IMG/VR virus record: IMGVR_UViG_3300040801_004430
Coordinates: 1 to 30,678 of that record
DNA length: 30,678 bases
DNA from: a virus
Direction: 5' to 3' (one strand)
This document shows, piece after piece, positions 6,297-29,655 of this stretch. Within the stretch, counting starts at the first letter, position 1; the number at the start of each line of letters is the position of its first letter. The translations under genes were made by a program, and so were the position numbers. The notes beneath the pieces are model-generated. The model had not been told where the DNA came from. It worked only from the letters and a program-made list of their open reading frames with translations, and did not search any database.

Positions 6297-6370
<74 letters not shown>

Positions 6371-9612: not shown

Positions 9613-9921
9613 TTATCTCGCTTCTGTAACAGCTCGATCCATGAGGTTTCGCGCAACTGTGAGAACTTGGTCTTTATCAAGGCCACTCTGTGCGGCCCCT
9701 TCAGGAGCACCAACCGAAACAATGATGTCGAACTTATCTTGGCTCGGTATGACTCGGAACCAATAGCCGGACAGGACGTTAAGTCCATTACGGCGATCGA
9801 TCCATTCGGCAGCGGACAACCTCTCATCGGTGATCTCAACCTCGAATCCGATCGCCGAGATCTCCTCGCCGAGATCAGTCAAGGATTGTGAAGACTTGGA
9901 ATGATGCGGCTCCCCAGGCAT
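9613..9921 (-). CDS. Small unknown protein, candidate immunity protein for the MuF-peptidase
   Basis: The ATG at 9921 lies inside the end of the MuF-peptidase gene with GAGGAG about ten bases upstream, and gives a 102-residue product; a TTG at the MuF stop would give about 89 residues. The protein is acidic at the start (DLGEEISAIGFEVEITDERL) and has a strand-rich centre (YWFRVIPSQDKFDIIVSV) followed by a C-terminal helix (DQVLTVARNLMDRAV), a common layout of small immunity proteins. I do not recognise a family. Overlap with a gene that ends in a peptidase domain is the reason for proposing it as its immunity partner. It could instead be an unrelated head gene. Confidence 0.55.
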   Translation of the reverse strand: MPGEPHHSKSSQSLTDLGEEISAIGFEVEITDERLSAAEWIDRRNGLNVLSGYWFRVIPSQDKFDIIVSVGAPEGAAQSGLDKDQVLTVARNLMDRAVTEAR

Positions 9922-11218
9922 TGATGAAACGCTCCTCGTCGATGGCTGCAAAAAGTCCGCCGTCCGAACCCGGGCCAGATGTGCCCCAGGGGTCGCGCAA
10001 TTCTACCATTCCGTCGGAACGAATACCATCCATGACGACCCAGTGTGAGCCCTGCAGCACCGCTGTAGGACCAATATTCGACACGAGTCGAAGCGCAGCC
10101 TGGACATCATCAAACGCCAGATCAATCGAACCTGCGAGTAGCTTTCCGCCTCGCAAGCCCAAGGACTCAGCCGCACGTCTAAGCGCCAACGCATCGGTCC
10201 GGCCGTCAGGAAGGCCGAACCCACGAAGACGTGACTCCTCGACTTGTTCCCCACGGTCCATCAGCAACTGACGCACGCACGCCGGCCCGCATGAGTTCGG
10301 CTCCTCTTGAACGACGACGTCTTCAGATTCCCGCCATTCATCGTATACCTTGCGCGGGTCAGATCCCGTCCCTTCGGACGATCCGCCAACACTCGGTGAG
10401 GGCAATCGGCTTCCCTCAGGCTCGAGCCACGGAATCTCCTTCTCCCTGTCGTTCGGCCGACCTGGCGGGTGAAGGTAGCGCCGGCCGTCGCCATCCTCGA
10501 ACATCTCCTCGAGCTCGCGCACCTGGCCGTGGACTGGGTAACTGTCCTGATCGGTTCGCGCGTCGAACGTCACGATCGCCGACTTCTTCAGGTCGTCGAC
10601 GCCCTCTTCATCACGCGCCCTCATCAGCGAGGCGTTGTGGGCTCGGTTGTAGGCCCCCAGTGTTTCGGTCCGAACGATACGTCTGGCCGCCCATCGCTCG
10701 CCGTCGATGGCTCGCTGCACCGCGGCGGTCGCCGTCGCCCGGTCGCCGCGGGTGGTGAGCATCATTGCGACCTCGGCGCGGACGCGGCGTTCGATCCGAG
10801 GCCCCCACCTGGCAAGACTCGCGGGTACGCGCCGAATGATGGAGTCGTCCGCGGCCTCGGCAATAGCCGCCAGATTCAACGGCCGCGCCTCGTAGCCGTA
10901 ATGGGCCATCCACTCGTTGATCTCTTCGACCGTGTGGCCGGGAGCGAGGCTGTACATCTCTCGAATGCTCGCCTCGAGTACCGCTTCGAGCTTCTCACTC
11001 GTCAGTCGCTGGGTGAGATCGGCCAGGAAGGCGACGATACGGAGTTGTTGTGCGCGAAACCTCTCCGGGTCCAGTCGATCGAGCTCGGCCGTGACTTCGT
11101 CGAGTGCGAGCGAAAGCTGCCGTTCCACCGCGCGCCGAGCCTTCTTGTCGAGCGCGAGAAGCTGTCGATGATGGTTCCGGGCGAGCCGAAGGATGTCGGG
11201 CGGGATCTGGGGCACCAC
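9875..11218 (-). CDS. MuF head protein fused to a C39/papain-like cysteine peptidase domain
   Basis: A 447-residue two-part protein starting with GTG at 11218. Residues about 95-280 form a phage Mu gpF-like domain, marked by RRIVRTETLGAYNRAHN and later HPPGRPNDREKEIPWL. MuF proteins are minor head proteins next to the portal and are injected or packaged with the head. Residues about 295-447 form a cysteine peptidase-like domain of C39/papain type: NSCGPACVRQLL with Cys310, SHWVVMDGI with His392 and LRDPWG with Asp409, in the family's usual order. MuF-toxin fusions are known polymorphic toxins of temperate phages. The peptidase could be a toxin delivered on infection or a head-maturation enzyme, since no other prohead protease is in the window. 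It overlaps the next gene, which may encode immunity. Confidence 0.82.
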   Translation of the reverse strand: MVPQIPPDILRLARNHHRQLLALDKKARRAVERQLSLALDEVTAELDRLDPERFRAQQLRIVAFLADLTQRLTSEKLEAVLEASIREMYSLAPGHTVEEINEWMAHYGYEARPLNLAAIAEAADDSIIRRVPASLARWGPRIERRVRAEVAMMLTTRGDRATATAAVQRAIDGERWAARRIVRTETLGAYNRAHNASLMRARDEEGVDDLKKSAIVTFDARTDQDSYPVHGQVRELEEMFEDGDGRRYLHPPGRPNDREKEIPWLEPEGSRLPSPSVGGSSEGTGSDPRKVYDEWRESEDVVVQEEPNSCGPACVRQLLMDRGEQVEESRLRGFGLPDGRTDALALRRAAESLGLRGGKLLAGSIDLAFDDVQAALRLVSNIGPTAVLQGSHWVVMDGIRSDGMVELRDPWGTSGPGSDGGLFAAIDEERFINAWGAASFQVFTILD

Positions 11219-14797: not shown

Positions 14798-15355
14798 TCA
14801 CAGCGCCTCCTGCTGAATGAGCACCGTGACGACCCGCTCAATACCAAGCGCCTCCTTCTCCATCGCGGACGCTGACTCCATGAGCTCGGTGATGACCTTG
14901 ACGTGCTTCCACAGGTCGGCCGCGTCGATGTCCTTGGCCTCGAGCTCGTCAATCTTCGACAGAATGAGCGTGAGCATCTTCCTGGCGCCTTCGCTCGCAT
15001 CGGCCGCCCACTTCAGTTGTCGGGTCCGGAATTCCTGCAGGCGCTCGACGTAGTCATCCTCCGCCGTCTCACGGGCCTTTGCGTCGAGGTAGGCGTCGTA
15101 GGCGGTGGCGCGAGCTTCCCAGTCGTTCTTCGAGCTCCACGCGCAGAAGTAGCCCGGAGGCCGGGGCAGGCTCCCCGGTTTCTCACCCTTTTCTCTCCGG
15201 TCCTTCCCGTCCCGTTGACGCACGTACTCGGCGTGTGCAGCCGGCAGAGAGCGTGTCTGGGCTGGAAGGTCGCGGTAGGCAACGAAGCCTGCGAAGGCCT
15301 TGTCGGTCTCGCCAGGCTGGCGGTCCCAGGGCTGTTTCGGTTGGTCGTGTTCCAC
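14798..15355 (-). CDS. Terminase small subunit
   Basis: A 185-residue protein starting with GTG at 15355. The beginning PWDRQPGETDKAFAGFVAYRD and the following stretch with AWSSKNDWEARATAYDAYLD fit the pattern of small terminase-like DNA-binding proteins I know, with the W..R...YD...... order after an HTH-like segment. Then comes a long helix with ARKMLTLILSKIDELEA, the usual oligomerisation part. Small terminase binds the packaging site and presents it to the large subunit. It is the first gene of the leftward late operon, so the long inverted repeat region just upstream could contain the packaging site. Confidence 0.75.
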   Translation of the reverse strand: MEHDQPKQPWDRQPGETDKAFAGFVAYRDLPAQTRSLPAAHAEYVRQRDGKDRREKGEKPGSLPRPPGYFCAWSSKNDWEARATAYDAYLDAKARETAEDDYVERLQEFRTRQLKWAADASEGARKMLTLILSKIDELEAKDIDAADLWKHVKVITELMESASAMEKEALGIERVVTVLIQQEAL

Positions 15356-15393: not shown

Positions 15394-15422
15394 AGGATAG
15401 CGGTGACGTGGGGAGACGTCGA
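15394..15422 (-). promoter_or_regulatory. Possible leftward late promoter
   Basis: On the minus strand TCGACG (15422-15417) is separated by 17 bases from TATCCT (15399-15394), each with four of six matches to the sigma-70 consensus. It points to the small terminase gene with a leader of about 30 bases. No other candidate is better in the region. Confidence 0.35.
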
Positions 15423-15474
15423 GTTGGACGTTCCGAGGCTCGCGAAGCTGGCGAAGTGTGACATCAATGCCACA

Positions 15475-15748
15475 CGGATCGGATGGATCGGGTCGCATTT
15501 CCAACCCGATCTGTCGCAAGTCCAGTGTTCATGCGGGTCGGATCGGATGGATCGGATGGATCGGGTATTTGCCTATCTCTCTCGCCACTCACCTACCTAC
15601 CCCTGCGATTTCGCCGTTTTTCGTGGGGTAGGTACCCTTTGCCTCTTTCAATTATAGGGGATAACCCGATCCATCCGATCCGAGGCGCATGAACACTGGG
15701 GATAAAGCGATCCGTGGACCCGATCCGTACCCGATCCATCCGATCCGT
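15475..15748. repeat. Nested, nearly symmetrical inverted-repeat region (origin, packaging or operator candidate)
   Basis: The 463 bases between the small terminase and lipoprotein starts contain no gene. The motif CGGATCGGATGGATCGGGT occurs twice on the plus strand (15475-15493 and, with one extra nine-base unit, 15538-15566) and twice on the minus strand (15664-15683 and 15729-15748). The inner pair is flanked by CCAGTGTTCATGCG (15522-15535) and its perfect complement (15686-15699). At the centre lies ACCTACCCC/GGGGTAGGT (15595-15603 and 15625-15633), a nine-base stem. All the pairs are centred within about 5 bases of 15611. This is a repeat-rich control element, perhaps an iteron origin, a packaging site or a cluster of operators. 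An AT-richer stretch (CAATTATAGGGGATA) lies just right of the central stem. Confidence 0.85.
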
Positions 15749-15774
15749 CCCGCGCCGGTAGAATTCCTGAGCGT

Positions 15775-15803
15775 GGTGTGAGAACCTCTTCGAAACTCAC
15801 ACC
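15775..15803. repeat. Inverted repeat upstream of the lipoprotein gene
   Basis: GGTGTGAG (15775-15782) and CTCACACC (15796-15803) make a perfect eight-base inverted repeat with a 13-base loop, ending 15 bases before the lipoprotein start. It could be an operator or a leader hairpin. A shorter related GTGTG/CACAC repeat is at 15456-15475. Confidence 0.5.
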
Positions 15804-15818
15804 CAGAACGGGGGACCA

Positions 15819-16946
15819 ATGACAAGTAGACTGACGTTTCTGTTCGCATTCCTTTGCTTCGCTGCCTGTTCCAGCGAAGAATCGAAGATCGCAGCTAAGG
15901 CGGAGAAGCTATGCGAAGCCGATCAGCTGGACCGACTCAACCTTGAGATGTTTGAGGATGGTGTCTATCAGGACCTGGTGCGCGCTGAAGACATTGCCTT
16001 CGCAAAGGATGCCGAAAAGGCGCTGGAAGGAAACGCGTTTGCCGAGCTTGCGGCCATCGCCGTCCCATACCAGAAACTAAAGAACGAGCACGCTGAGTGC
16101 GAAGTACAGGTGGCCATTGCAAACGGTGAAGCCACGGCTTCCGTTCGAAGGACGGCGCCGAAACCAGCTCTAAAGGACGAGCTCGAACTCATCGGTTCGC
16201 TCGCGGCTTCGCCGATAGAAGAGGTGCACGCGAAAGCGAAGAGGCTTCTCCAGGATGCGCCCAGGGAAACGGAGAGCTACGAAATTCGCTTTGAGCGCAC
16301 CGAAGGTAAATGGCTCGCAAACCTCGGACTTCCCGAATCCCAAGAGACAAAAGAGCGCTTTACTGAATACATGAAGAAAGTCCGAGATCTCATCCGCGCG
16401 GGCGACTACCGGTCCGCTGACGAAGTGCTGAAGAAGGCGGAGTTGCTGGACACAGACAACGAGAGCGTTCAGTCACTCCGAACCGAGCTCGACAAAGAGC
16501 TTAATCAGTTGGTTGCGGGAAACTGGCGCCTCGACGAGAACAAGGACGAAATGGACGACACACTGCGCACCGTTGTGTCACTTCCCGCGGTCATCGAGGG
16601 CGAGCCGGGAGTGTTCACGCCCAAGCCAATTTTGATCGCTCGATGTGACGACGGCCGCCTCGACCTGTTCCTTGCAATGGACGAATACTTGGGGCTACGT
16701 GGTGTCAAGACCCGAGTTCGTTTCGGCAAAGCGCCAGCTGAATTTGTGGGCGTTGGCCTGTCGGAAAACGGAAAGTCCGTGTTCTTCGACGAACCTTGGG
16801 TGCTCGTAAATCAGATAATCAAGAAGGAAGGCGAGCCACTGCGTTTCGAGGTCCAGAGCCGACTCGGTGACAGGCAATCATCGTTCGATACCGATGGGGC
16901 GAAGCTCGCACTCGCCAAAGTCATCACGCCGTGTACCGACAAGTAG
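15819..16946 (+). CDS. Lipoprotein with a C-terminal VasI/TagO-like domain (moron)
   Basis: A 375-residue protein with GGGGGA just before its ATG. Residues 1-17 form a lipoprotein signal (short charged start, hydrophobic core, lipobox FAAC with Cys17, then SSEE), so the mature protein is predicted to be anchored in a membrane, probably the outer one as Ser follows the Cys. The middle (about residues 25-220) is helical and charged. Residues about 230-372 (NWRLDENKDEMDDTLRTVVSL, later KPILIARCDDGRLDLFLAM and FFDEPWVLVNQII) resemble the VasI/TagO family, small proteins known next to type VI secretion genes. The gene is opposite to both neighbours and appears AT-richer. It is a likely lysogenic-conversion or exclusion gene. 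Confidence 0.75.
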   Translation: MTSRLTFLFAFLCFAACSSEESKIAAKAEKLCEADQLDRLNLEMFEDGVYQDLVRAEDIAFAKDAEKALEGNAFAELAAIAVPYQKLKNEHAECEVQVAIANGEATASVRRTAPKPALKDELELIGSLAASPIEEVHAKAKRLLQDAPRETESYEIRFERTEGKWLANLGLPESQETKERFTEYMKKVRDLIRAGDYRSADEVLKKAELLDTDNESVQSLRTELDKELNQLVAGNWRLDENKDEMDDTLRTVVSLPAVIEGEPGVFTPKPILIARCDDGRLDLFLAMDEYLGLRGVKTRVRFGKAPAEFVGVGLSENGKSVFFDEPWVLVNQIIKKEGEPLRFEVQSRLGDRQSSFDTDGAKLALAKVITPCTDK

Positions 16947-21542: not shown

Positions 21543-21571
21543 AAACTAACGATAGTATCGATACCCGTCAA
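21543..21571 (-). promoter_or_regulatory. Leftward early promoter with a repressor operator in the spacer
   Basis: On the minus strand TTGACG (21571-21566) is followed by 17 bases and TAGTTT (21548-21543). The 11-base palindrome CGATAGTATCG (21550-21560) lies in the spacer, five bases after the -35 box and one base before the -10 box. The same design is at 24928-24956. It would drive the small protein, methyltransferase and primase-helicase genes. Confidence 0.65.
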
Positions 21572-21619: not shown

Positions 21620-21642
21620 GACGCGAACCAATGGGGAAACGT

Positions 21643-23702: not shown

Positions 23703-24326
23703 TCAGAGCAGCCCGTTCCGCTCCAACATCCTCAGGTAGTACCGCGCCATCTCCGGACTCACGTCGTAGACCTCGCTGACGTACTCGGGGTTCAACGAGT
23801 CGAGGTCCCGAAGAATTCTCCTCGGCATCATGACGAACCCCGCCCAGGCCCACGCCTGCCACTCGGGGTCACGGTACGCTTCGATGTCCGAGCGTCGATA
23901 GGTGGTCAGCCCGATCGCATTGCGGGAGGTGAACGCTTCGTGGAGCTGGTCGGCGTGAAGGATCGCGTGACCGAGCTCGTGCGCGATCGTTGCTCGAGCG
24001 CGATGTGTGAGGAAGGCGGGTTCGTAAACGGCGTGCCATTGTTCCTCGAGCACGAGGATCTCGATCTCGGGGTAGTCGTCGAAACGGGTCACGGCCTCGC
24101 ACTCACCGAGCTCGTCGGCCGATGCCGGCGAGATCGTCACATCGTAGTCCGGCAGATACCGAATGAGCCCTTTGATGTCGAGCGGCTCCGGACGGCGCAG
24201 CATGTCTGGCTGCCACTCCTCGAGAAAACGCTCGGCGCTTCGCTCCAGGTCCCACAGCGACTTCGGCTCAACTCGCGGGACCATCTCACGTGTCATGACT
24301 CGGCTTTCGATCATCTTCGGCATCAT
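23703..24326 (-). CDS. ImmA/IrrE-type metallopeptidase
   Basis: A 207-residue protein whose ATG overlaps the XRE2 stop (ATGA). The active site HELGH is at residues 116-120, in the context ARATIAHELGHAILHADQ, with a further acidic residue (about E150) in the helix YRRSDIEAYRDPEWQAWAWA as third ligand; FVMMPRR follows. This is the ImmA/IrrE family pattern. Such enzymes cleave a paired XRE repressor (ImmR in ICEBs1) and so trigger prophage induction. Its partner is the XRE2 gene next to it, with which it would be cotranscribed. Confidence 0.88.
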   Translation of the reverse strand: MMPKMIESRVMTREMVPRVEPKSLWDLERSAERFLEEWQPDMLRRPEPLDIKGLIRYLPDYDVTISPASADELGECEAVTRFDDYPEIEILVLEEQWHAVYEPAFLTHRARATIAHELGHAILHADQLHEAFTSRNAIGLTTYRRSDIEAYRDPEWQAWAWAGFVMMPRRILRDLDSLNPEYVSEVYDVSPEMARYYLRMLERNGLL

Positions 24327-24670
24327 CCCCTCCCGGACAACAACTCAATAAGGCGGTTCATCTTCTCGTCCGTGAGAGTTGTGGTCGTCATTCTGCGGGC
24401 AAGCTCGAGCGCAAGGCCGGCGTCGGCGCCGTCGTCGATATCAAGCTCCATCGTCTCGTCGAGCTCGGCGCGCGTCTCCATCTCATCGAGGTCGAGGCAG
24501 TCGATCGCCTCGCTGATCACCTTCCAGTGCGAACGATCGAGCCGTTTCTTGCCGCGCTCGACCTGAGACAGAAACACGTCTGACAGGCCCACCTGGTCGG
24601 CCAGCGACCGCAACGAGAGCCCTTCTTCTTTTCGACAGGCGCGCAAATAGCGCCCGAGGTGCGTCTTCAT
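24323..24670 (-). CDS. XRE-family transcriptional regulator 2, partner of the ImmA-like peptidase
   Basis: I choose the ATG at 24670, with GGAGG six bases upstream, giving 115 residues; the frame to 24724 runs through the operator. Residues 1-60 are the HTH: LGRYLRACRKEEGLSLRSLA, DQVGLSDVFLSQVERGKKRL, then a helix with WKVISEAIDCLDL. The remainder is acidic, helical and ends LIELLSGRG, the usual make-up of ImmR-like repressors with a C-terminal oligomerisation/cleavage part. It is likely autoregulated through the CTGAA-N6-TTCAG operator between its promoter boxes. ImmA-type cleavage would switch it off. Confidence 0.88.
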   Translation of the reverse strand: MKTHLGRYLRACRKEEGLSLRSLADQVGLSDVFLSQVERGKKRLDRSHWKVISEAIDCLDLDEMETRAELDETMELDIDDGADAGLALELARRMTTTTLTDEKMNRLIELLSGRG

Positions 24671-24695
24671 GGCGACCTCCGTTTGAACGGATCGC

Positions 24696-24724
24696 AAGGT
24701 ACTGAACAATTTTTCAGCAGTCAA
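24696..24724 (-). promoter_or_regulatory. XRE2-ImmA promoter with an operator in the spacer
   Basis: On the minus strand TTGACT (24724-24719) and TACCTT (24701-24696) are 17 bases apart. The palindrome CTGAACAATTTTTCAG (24702-24717), CTGAA-N6-TTCAG, fills the spacer. Binding there would block the promoter, so XRE2 most likely represses itself. Confidence 0.65.
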
Positions 24725-24727
24725 CCC

Positions 24728-24771
24728 TTGCGAACCGAAATTGGTTCGCGTAACACTGAAAACCTGTTCAG
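24728..24771 (+). promoter_or_regulatory. Possible rightward early promoter with two inverted repeats
   Basis: TTGCGA (24728-24733) and TAACAC (24751-24756) are 17 bases apart, each a modest match. GCGAACC/GGTTCGC (24730-24736 and 24743-24749) lies across the -35 box and spacer, and CTGAAAACCTGTTCAG (24756-24771), the second CTGAA-N6-TTCAG copy, starts at the -10 end. XRE2 bound there could repress the 24799 gene. Which protein binds the first repeat is unknown. Confidence 0.5.
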
Positions 24772-24798
24772 CAACTAGCGCGAGACAAGGGGAGCGCG

Positions 24799-25041
24799 AT
24801 GAAGACGAAGTCAGAATGGTTCACCGAGATCGTGCGAAGCGATCAGATCTCGGAAGACGAGAAGCGGGCGATCGCCCTGCTCTACCGCCGCATAAGTCGT
24901 TTGGGGTCCGACCTCGTCGGTTTTCGCTTGACCGATGACGATAGTATCGTTACTTATCGTTACATCGACATCGAGGAAGGTGATGACAGACACAGAAAGC
25001 AGACCCGAAACGAGATGGCTGACCATTCAGGAGGCGGCTGA
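24799..25041 (+). CDS. Small unknown protein, first gene of the rightward early operon
   Basis: An 80-residue protein with GGGGAG before its ATG. It begins TKSEWFTEIVRSDQISEDEKRAI, then has a helix (ALLYRRISRLGSDLVGFRL), and a strand-like TYRYIDIEEG; the last 20 residues are polar and probably only the result of overlap. The 59-base overlap with the next gene, and the promoter and operator at 24928-24956 inside it, are unusual. No family is recognised. Confidence 0.55.
   Translation: MKTKSEWFTEIVRSDQISEDEKRAIALLYRRISRLGSDLVGFRLTDDDSIVTYRYIDIEEGDDRHRKQTRNEMADHSGGG
24928..24956 (+). promoter_or_regulatory. Rightward promoter with the same operator as the leftward early promoter
   Basis: TTGACC (24928-24933, five of six) is followed by 17 bases and a weak -10 TACTTA (24951-24956). 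CGATAGTATCG (24939-24949) lies five bases after the -35 box and one base before the -10 box, exactly as at 21543-21571. It would drive the excisionase-like and recombination genes. It lies inside the 24799 gene. Confidence 0.65.
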
Positions 25042-25213
25042 GTATCTCGGCCTATCACCGGACTACCTGTACCGGCGCCGAAAGGCAGGAAAGCCCCCGG
25101 TCTGGTCTCACATCCCCGATTCCAAGGTGATTCGATACGACATCGCTGACCTCGACGCCTTCATGGAGCAGCACAAGCAAGATGCTGCGACTCAAGAAGC
25201 GCCGGCCGCATAA
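24983..25213 (+). CDS. Excisionase-like HTH protein
   Basis: The ATG at 24983 has GAGGAAGG just upstream and gives 76 residues; the frame also extends back to 24935 but without a ribosome site. The protein has the single-domain helix-turn-helix order WLTIQEAAEYLGLSPDYLYR, then RRKAGKPPVW, SKVIRYDIADLDAFMEQ, the HTH_17/MerR-like DNA-binding pattern of phage excisionases and small regulators. It lies right after the operator-controlled promoter. No integrase is in the window, so its role as excisionase is not proven; it could be an early transcription factor. Confidence 0.75.
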   Translation: MTDTESRPETRWLTIQEAAEYLGLSPDYLYRRRKAGKPPVWSHIPDSKVIRYDIADLDAFMEQHKQDAATQEAPAA

Positions 25214-27081: not shown

Positions 27082-27169
27082 GGCGAGACTGAACGGCCGA
27101 GCGAAGGATGGCGCTCGGAGTAGGTCGGCAAGCTGCCAGCTTGCGCAGGTTCGAGTCCTGCTCTCGCCA
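27082..27169 (+). tRNA. tRNA-like element 1 (acceptor stem and T arm, body not canonical)
   Basis: The 3' part is a clear T arm GCAGG-TTCGAGT-CCTGC (27145-27161), followed by TCTCGCC, which pairs perfectly with GGCGAGA at 27082-27088; the discriminator is A. The whole is 88 bases. A stem GCAAG-CTGCCAG-CTTGC (27128-27144) could be an anticodon arm with T33 and anticodon GCC (Gly), but then no variable loop is left, and the D-side segment is 39 bases long with a stem CCGAGCG/CGCTCGG. It is therefore either an unusual tRNA or a tRNA-like RNA. CCA is not encoded. Confidence 0.5.
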
Positions 27170-27390: not shown

Positions 27391-29655
27391 GTGGTCGATG
27401 TGCCATGGACAACGATGGAAGAGCTCCGAGAGAGCGAGGGACTTGCCGCGGCCAGGTTCGTGAAGGCCTGGCGGTCCGGCGAGTTGCTTCGCGGTAAGCG
27501 CGTCGAGATGCAGCAAGTCGACGGGCAGCGCTACTGGAGGATGGTCAACCCCAACGCCGATGCTGAGCCCGCTGAGGAAGTCAGTAGCCAGGAACGCGGG
27601 ATCGTCATTACCGAAGAGACCGACGTCGTCGAAGAGGAGTTGGATTTGGTTCCGACCGCTCAGCCCGAAGAGACCGACGTCGTCGAAGAAGTTTCGGAGC
27701 TTGCACCCGCCGAACCTGATGAACCCGAAGAAACCGAAGCCGCCGAGGGGGAGCCGGAACTTGAGCCCGGAGCCCCGCGCCTCGAGGACTCGAAGATACA
27801 CGGGCGAACTGTAAACGGACTGGTTGCGGCCGGGCTCGAGACATCCGCTGACGTCGTCGCGTTTATCGACGACGCGGCCGACGCGGATGCTGCAGTCGAA
27901 AGGCTGACGGAGATCGACGGCGTTGGCCAGAAAGGAGCAGCCGACGTCATTGCCTGGGTCCAGTTTGTTGAGGACTGGACAGGTGCAGGAGCCGATCCCG
28001 AGACCTTCGGCGCATTGGAAGTGGGCGACGAGTTTCTCGCCACGTCCTCTGGTAAACGCTTCCTGAAGGTCGAGCCGTCGCGTCGCGAGAATGGCACCCC
28101 GTACAACGCGCTTCGTTGCTTCGAATTCGACGGCGACGAGCGGACGTTCTTCGCTGCCGACAGCCAGATCGACGCCATCCCCGGCGGCGACATCCACTGC
28201 CCCGAATGTGGCGGTTGGTTCGACCGCGCTCCATTTGACGCCTACGAGGCCGGATCAGTCGCGGTCTGCGAGGCCGATGGAGATCCGGATCGCGGCGACT
28301 GTGGCGTCAGGTTCTGTATTAGCGGTTTCTTGGACGGCGAGTGGGTCGTCGTCGGCATGGTCGAGACCGAGATTGTCGAAGAGGCAGTTAAACACGCGAT
28401 CGATGCGAACGAAGTGGAGTCGCTCGAAGAGGAGTCGCTCGAAGAGGAGTCGCTCGAAGTGGAGTCGCTCGAAGAGGAGCCGCTCGAAGTGGAGTCGCTC
28501 GAAGAGGAGGAAGACAGCGCCGACGACCTGTCAGACATCGACTTCACTTTCGCCGACGTCGGCAATGAGGATGAGCCCGACACCGAAAGTAGCCAGGTCG
28601 AGCCGCTCGAAGAACCCACGGCCGAGCCGTTCAGCCTCGATGCATTCTGGGGCGAGCCGGACGCGGAGCTCGTCCCGGAACACGAACGCCTTCACCCTGC
28701 CCTTTCGGCTTGTAGGCCCGCGTCCATCATTCCGGAAGCACCAGACTCCGACGAGTGGTTGCGTCTTCGTGCCCACGGCGTCGGCTCATCAGACGCTGGC
28801 GCCATACTCGGTGTTTCGCCGCACGCGAGCGCACTCGACATCTGGAAGACGAAGGTCGGCGAAGACGCTGACTCCAAACCATGGCTCGAGCCGTACTCAG
28901 ACTTCGGAACGTGGTTCGAACCCTTCCTGCTCGACTACTGCGAGCTTACGTCCGGCCGCGCGATTACCGCCGGCGACGACCTCGGAACGCTGCGCTCGGT
29001 CATCTGGCCGAGGGCTCAGGCAAACCTCGACGGGCTCGACGACTTGGGAGTCATCGAGGAACTGAAGACATCGAGCGAAATATGGGACGAAGTGCCGCCG
29101 GCATACGTCGCCCAGGCGCAACACCAGATGTACGTCACGGGCTGCGATGAGGCTCGAGTACGACAGTTCATCTGCCCGGTCGACCGGCCGGCGGTAATGA
29201 AGCTGCTCGAGCGCGGCGTATCCGAGCAGCTCGTCGCCGAATGGCTCTTCGATGTCGGCGAGGTCGTAACCTGGGTCGTCGAACGTGACGACGACTACAT
29301 CGCGCGCCTGGTCGAGCTCGAGCAACAGTTTTGGGCATGCGTCGAGGCGGGCGTCGAGCCGATCGAGAACGACCCTGACGGCGAGATCGACCTTACCGAC
29401 GATCCGAAGGTGTTCGCGGCGATGAAGGAGTTCGCCGCCCTGAAGACCTCGGTCGCTGTCTACAAACCGGAAATGAAAGCGGTCGAGCGCGCAAAGAAGA
29501 AGGCGCGCAAGGAGATCGAGCGCGCCGTCTCACTCCTGAAAGAAAAGCCCAAGCGGGTCGTCGTCGGCGACCACAAAGCAACGCTCGTCGAGCGCTACGA
29601 CAACCAGTACTGGAACCTGTACCCGGGGGAGGAACATGACCGCATCATCTTCTGA
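27391..29655 (+). CDS. YqaJ-type viral recombinase/exonuclease with extra N-terminal domains
   Basis: I choose the GTG at 27391 because GGAGG lies five bases upstream; the frame extends back through the tRNA-like elements. The product has 754 residues. Order: an N-terminal 50-residue unit (WTTMEELRESEGLAAARFV), an acidic linker, a helix-hairpin-helix-like part (about 135-190, with LTEIDGVGQKGAADVIAWV), a zinc-ribbon-like part (HCPECGG at about 269, later CGVRFC), six copies of a five-residue repeat (341-370), and the YqaJ nuclease at about 450-700. The catalytic residues are visible: GVGSSDAGAILG, the Asp in ANLDGL (Asp547) and EELK (Glu557, Lys559). It resects DNA ends so that ERF can anneal strands. 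Confidence 0.85.
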   Translation: MVDVPWTTMEELRESEGLAAARFVKAWRSGELLRGKRVEMQQVDGQRYWRMVNPNADAEPAEEVSSQERGIVITEETDVVEEELDLVPTAQPEETDVVEEVSELAPAEPDEPEETEAAEGEPELEPGAPRLEDSKIHGRTVNGLVAAGLETSADVVAFIDDAADADAAVERLTEIDGVGQKGAADVIAWVQFVEDWTGAGADPETFGALEVGDEFLATSSGKRFLKVEPSRRENGTPYNALRCFEFDGDERTFFAADSQIDAIPGGDIHCPECGGWFDRAPFDAYEAGSVAVCEADGDPDRGDCGVRFCISGFLDGEWVVVGMVETEIVEEAVKHAIDANEVESLEEESLEEESLEVESLEEEPLEVESLEEEEDSADDLSDIDFTFADVGNEDEPDTESSQVEPLEEPTAEPFSLDAFWGEPDAELVPEHERLHPALSACRPASIIPEAPDSDEWLRLRAHGVGSSDAGAILGVSPHASALDIWKTKVGEDADSKPWLEPYSDFGTWFEPFLLDYCELTSGRAITAGDDLGTLRSVIWPRAQANLDGLDDLGVIEELKTSSEIWDEVPPAYVAQAQHQMYVTGCDEARVRQFICPVDRPAVMKLLERGVSEQLVAEWLFDVGEVVTWVVERDDDYIARLVELEQQFWACVEAGVEPIENDPDGEIDLTDDPKVFAAMKEFAALKTSVAVYKPEMKAVERAKKKARKEIERAVSLLKEKPKRVVVGDHKATLVERYDNQYWNLYPGEEHDRIIF
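28411..28515 (+). repeat. Fifteen-base tandem repeat inside the exonuclease gene
   Basis: Six full copies of GAAGWGGAGYCGCTC (28411-28500) and a seventh, diverged one. They code for EVESL or EEESL units in an acidic linker. Copies differ at few positions (GTG or GAG, TCG or CCG), so they are recent and likely vary in number between relatives. Confidence 0.9.

Follow-up and report, generated by a model that had tools for sequence, protein, structure and literature searches.

An inverted array of repeated boxes between the small terminase and lipoprotein genes of a tailed phage as a candidate bidirectional transcription-control region

The question raised by this locus is what role a large nested palindrome, placed centrally in the 463 bp of non-coding DNA that separate two divergent genes, may play in the phage that carries it. 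The window analyzed, a stretch of 30,678 nucleotides, is a virus record without end repeats (IMG/VR record IMGVR_UViG_3300040801_004430) and represents a tailed, sheath-bearing phage with 61% G+C. To the left of the gap lies the gene of the terminase small subunit (14798-15355, minus strand; phrog_6299, E 3.4e-14), in keeping with the non-coding location beside the small terminase given in an earlier note on this DNA that was made from the sequence alone. This gene heads a leftward head/tail operon encoding the small and large terminase, portal, a Mu-F-like/C39 protein, scaffold, major capsid, head completion, neck and sheath proteins. The Mu-F-like head morphogenesis protein (9875-11218, minus strand) contains a match to a C39-type peptidase domain (E 2.2e-6), and a complete tRNA with a CAT anticodon (6297-6370, minus strand) separates the head-completion gene from the capsid gene within this operon. 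To the right of the gap is a lone rightward gene encoding a putative lipoprotein (15819-16946, plus strand), with a signal peptide and a FAAC lipobox identified by eye and a phrog_1848 C-terminal domain. An 8-bp perfect inverted repeat (GGTGTGAG / CTCACACC, 15775-15803, plus strand) located just 5' of the ribosome-binding site of the lipoprotein gene is a possible translational control element.

Beyond the lipoprotein gene, the window encodes a leftward 723-aa protein and a CcrM-like methyltransferase, and further along are two HTH regulators, an M78 protease and a rightward Erf-SSB-YqaJ recombination module. The rightward module opens with a small HTH_17 / excisionase-like protein (24935-25213, plus strand), which is consistent with a temperate phage. 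The repressor-like HTH genes, at 21631 and 24323, do not flank the array. Operator-like repeats CTGAACA..TTTCAGCA and CTGAAAACCTGTTCAGCA (24703-24773) lie beside the second of these genes (24323-24724), and CGATAGTATCG is common to the control regions at 21.5 kb and 24.9 kb (21549-21559 and 24939-24949). In a tRNA-like element upstream of a RecE-like gene (27082-27169, plus strand), the acceptor and T arms are good and the variable arm forms a 7-bp hairpin; a normal D arm is lacking, the Rfam tRNA score of 20.2 is below the cut-off and ARAGORN made no call. The gene of the 804-aa RecE-like protein itself contains a 15-bp tandem repeat of 6.7 copies (28410-28509, plus strand).

The nested palindrome spans 15474-15748 (275 bases) and comprises three pairs of arms with centers at 15611, 15610.5 and 15614, which agrees with the common center near 15611, within about five bases, reported in the earlier note. 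The two 20-nt outer arms (15474-15493 and 15729-15748) are 100% complementary. Those of the inner pair (15522-15555 and 15666-15699) have a length of 34 nt and are 94% complementary, and both contain an identical 14-mer, CCAGTGTTCATGCG (15522-15535, plus strand; 15686-15699, minus strand), previously noticed as a 14-base inverted flank. The central stem had also been seen, as one of nine bases; its length was found to be 10 bp, with TACCTACCCC (15594-15603, plus strand) pairing with GGGGTAGGTA (15625-15634, minus strand).

The outer arms are themselves iterons, the left one being ACGGATCGGATGGATCGGGT with two 9-bp units (15474-15493, plus strand) and the right one its complement (15729-15748, minus strand). 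Inner iterons are located at 15538-15566 (plus strand) and 15664-15683 (minus strand). The earlier count was of four iteron copies, two per strand; exact copies of the 19-mer number three (one on the plus strand and two on the minus strand), and the left inner iteron is inexact. The latter contains three 9-bp units in a run (15539-15566), amounting to two overlapping one-mismatch iteron copies, against two units in the right inner iteron, and the extra nine-base unit described for one inner arm was thus correctly recognized.

The array consists of two half-modules inverted to each other about the center. From outer to inner, each consists of a 20-nt iteron, a 28/29-nt spacer, the 14-mer, 2 nt, the inner iteron, a 27/29-nt spacer and the 10-mer. 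The outer iterons, 14-mers and 10-mers are identical between the halves, as are the inner iterons except for the extra left unit, and the distance from outer to inner iteron is 64 bp on the left and 65 bp on the right, or approximately six helical turns. The outer spacers, near-equal in length, are unrelated in sequence (p = 0.37), and the right one (15700-15728, minus strand) holds two further partial GGATCGG units. That the boxes and their spacing have been kept and the intervening sequence has not points to selection on protein-binding sites; a recent inverted copy is disfavored, because such a copy would have retained the spacers as well.

This symmetry is far beyond chance, as had been argued on inspection. 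Against the 65 arm bases that share one center in the array, no more than 21 did so in 40 Markov-simulated windows and no more than 32 in approximately 130 other fetched loci, among which no comparable nested palindrome was found. Folding, which the earlier note had proposed as a check, gave z = -9.3 for the array as single-stranded DNA, with 0 of 100 shuffles equally good. No match to a structured RNA family was detected at the array.

Searches were also made for copies and relatives of the array. The 19-mer gave no match in IMG/VR and 14 isolated single copies across unrelated phyla in GTDB genomes, and the earlier note's own refuting condition, an ordinary intergenic repeat scattered in host genomes, was not borne out. 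A 16-mer was found in 34 stretches of IMG/VR, with one exact match in each except for a tandem run in one of them (L036), and none of these stretches had the array; several showed near-copies whose spacing is a multiple of 9, which would fit a putative coding repeat of Gly-Ser-Asp. A blastn comparison of the gap against phages and plasmids returned nothing better than E 0.4. No close relative was found in viral contigs with the large terminase, capsid, portal, sheath and lipoprotein, using short exact peptides, which can miss relatives. The terminase profile search gave 80 loci, all with 23-36% identity, and among approximately 1,275 genomes of four phyla plus 14 others the best terminase match (31-37%) was in a genome placed, by the title of a locus of the same phylum, in the Acidobacteriota, with no other genes in common within the surrounding 18 kb. 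No syntenic relative was present in the collections searched.

A possible function is suggested by promoter-like signals within the array. The sole TATAAT of the window, counting both strands, is found on the minus strand at 15656-15651, 7 nt past the right inner iteron, and it is the top -10 hexamer among approximately 61,000 positions on both strands according to an approximate E. coli matrix, which may not be that of the host. The mirror position on the left, 7 nt after the left inner iteron, is occupied by TATCTC (15574-15579, plus strand). The motif GGGT-N7-TAT occurs twice in the window, both times at the inner iterons, and the chance that a TATAAT would fall within +/-2 nt of one or the other is, as a rough post hoc figure, 0.0016. 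The gap, although it makes up 1.5% of the sequence, holds three of the window's 14 best -10 hexamers, again by the E. coli matrix. No good -35 hexamer was found at the inner sites, where the -35 place is taken by the iteron (about -38 to -20 in the case of the right inner iteron), and a standard sigma-70 promoter scan of the gap detected none at 9 of 12. At the sequence level the two candidate -10 boxes, of which the left is weak, lie on opposite strands and face each other, with inferred starts at approximately 15586 (rightward, toward the lipoprotein gene) and 15644 (leftward, toward the small terminase and late genes), some 58 bp from each other. The central 10-mers, near the start of both inferred transcripts (the left copy would be at about +9 to +18 of the rightward one), can pair into one common hairpin.

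It is suspected that the array represents a bidirectional transcription-control region, in which paired, inward-facing and regulator-dependent candidate promoters serve the late operon and the lipoprotein gene, and this reading is given a probability of roughly 0.52. Each half would form one inward composite promoter composed of the distal iteron, the 14-mer, the proximal iteron at the -35 place and the -10 box 7 nt further on. A putative DNA-binding protein, probably encoded by the phage, would bind the 9-bp direct-repeat iterons and, once bound, would either bring RNA polymerase to both promoters or keep it off them, with an activator seeming likelier than a repressor. The leftward promoter would drive the small terminase gene and the late operon and the weaker rightward promoter the lipoprotein gene; each transcript would cross the opposing promoter and its boxes and would begin with the same hairpin, predicted for the leader of either. 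Head-on promoters with starts approximately 58 bp apart would be expected to interfere with each other. A more detailed version is put forward tentatively, with the odds against it: that the two identical composite promoters are head-on, that the late operon and the lipoprotein, which possibly acts in exclusion, are balanced against each other by a single putative regulator that recognizes 9-bp direct-repeat sites and has its distal sites six turns upstream, and that the unequal number of boxes (three versus two) tunes the two sides.

The earlier note had listed four roles without ranking them, namely a replication origin, a packaging site, a protein-binding array and the remains of a mobile element. 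The protein-binding array fits best and is made specific here as a promoter/operator region, the other three being less supported. It should also be noted that certain features count against the inward arrangement. It implies long leaders of approximately 290 and 230 nt, the rightward candidate -10 TATCTC is poor, and promoter-like sites are also present outside the array and closer to both genes.

These outer sites form the basis of the strongest alternative, in which the same regulator is bound by the array but the working promoters are the outward edge sites, with the array as a shared upstream operator or enhancer acting via looping or repression. The candidate leftward site, TCGACG-N17-TATCCT, lies near the small terminase start (15394-15399, minus strand) and ranks 17 in the window, while the candidate rightward -10, TAGAAT, lies just outside the right outer iteron (15759-15764, plus strand) and is among the seven best -10 hexamers. 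Both are high-ranking and would give short leaders to the two genes, and the array is symmetric between them. However, outward promoters would leave unexplained the unique TATAAT and the mirrored TAT at a fixed distance inside the array, and the outer flanks show no significant similarity to each other (p = 0.42). This arrangement is regarded as unlikely, albeit the least so of the alternatives.

A lower probability still is attached to a packaging initiation site (pac or cos), where the small terminase would bind iterons that precede its own gene, an arrangement found in several phages. Its main support is that the iteron repeats adjoin the small terminase gene. The pac site of phage P1 has GATC-bearing hexamers, of which the array is reminiscent, with 12 GATC sites in 280 bp and some in every iteron, and the phage encodes a DNA methyltransferase. 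However, packaging is directional, whereas the array is almost perfectly symmetric, and the contig passes through it unbroken. Nor is GATC depleted elsewhere (188 observed versus 208 expected), and the target of the methyltransferase may be another sequence.

More doubtful again is a replication origin. The iterons, the dyad and a short AT-rich segment (15640-15663) would suit one, and the cumulative GC skew has its minimum near the array, at 15229. Despite this minimum, genes on the same strand keep their third-codon skew from one side of the array to the other (permutation p = 0.44), which speaks against the origin suggested in the earlier note. In addition, no replication initiator was detected among the scanned genes of the window, several of which are without a family match on a contig that is possibly incomplete, and the recombination genes (Erf, SSB and YqaJ exonuclease) are 10 kb distant. 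A miniature inverted-repeat element (MITE) or other transposon remnant is very improbable, for although the 20-bp perfect terminal repeats and the inner repeats resemble ends with several transposase sites, there is no target-site duplication (the flanks outside 15474-15748 are CCAC and CCCG), no second copy of the array was found in any collection searched and the placement is central between divergent genes.

For the inward-facing promoter pair, the kind of switch is already known, its sequence and mirrored layout being new. P2-like phages have opposed lytic and lysogenic promoters at a distance of 40-60 bp, with direct-repeat operators (PMC7498355). At the sequence level the array resembles the pR/pL switch of coliphage 186, with its Apl and CI operators, in having opposed candidate promoters at such a distance, repeats suited to direct-repeat-binding proteins and an expectation of interference (PMC7498355). 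In contrast to 186, where the Apl operators sit between the promoters with repeats every 10-11 bp, the 9-bp boxes of the array are upstream of each -10. The array is also mirror-symmetric and would control a late operon and a lipoprotein gene instead of lysis and lysogeny; it is flanked by the small terminase and lipoprotein genes rather than an immunity repressor, and there are no shared operators between its candidate promoters. It departs from the 186 switch in gene content and operator position.

In phi29, p4 acts from a compact region with several sites to make up for the poor -35 of the late promoter A3 (PMC3100819). The p4-controlled A2c/A2b/A3 region is similar to the proposed control region in being compact, with four binding sites and one regulator offsetting a poor late -35 (PMC3100819), but the p4 sites are A-tract inverted repeats and the gene order differs; the scan of families showed no p4 or p6 relative. 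Phage 21 Q has as its binding site a direct repeat next to the late -10 (PMC6606751), and this QBE resembles the candidate late promoter of the array in that a direct-repeat site adjoins the -10 and the initial transcribed region holds a further feature (PMC6606751). It differs in having 6-bp repeats between -35 and -10, whereas those of the array are 9 bp and lie over the -35 position, nor did the window show a Q relative. The gtaT promoter of the Caulobacter gene transfer agent is activated by GafY/IHF, a distal site offsetting its degenerate -35 (PMC11150451). An activator, a distal site (about -120), a degenerate -35 and a head/tail gene cluster are the points of likeness to the proposed promoters (PMC11150451), while gtaT is a single promoter with no inverted array and a different site sequence, and no GafY relative was detected among the families scanned. 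Membership in the 186, Q, p4 or GafY systems is not claimed, as none has the sequence or mirror symmetry of the array.

As for the regulator, the two HTH regulators of the window adjoin other operator-like repeats, which suggests, without proof, that a third protein binds the array. If the inward-facing promoter reading is right, the likely on-switch of the late genes has been located in a phage without a close known relative, and the late operon and the lipoprotein gene would compete via mirrored promoters. The array would also serve as a defined DNA bait in the search for a regulator not apparent from the sequence alone.
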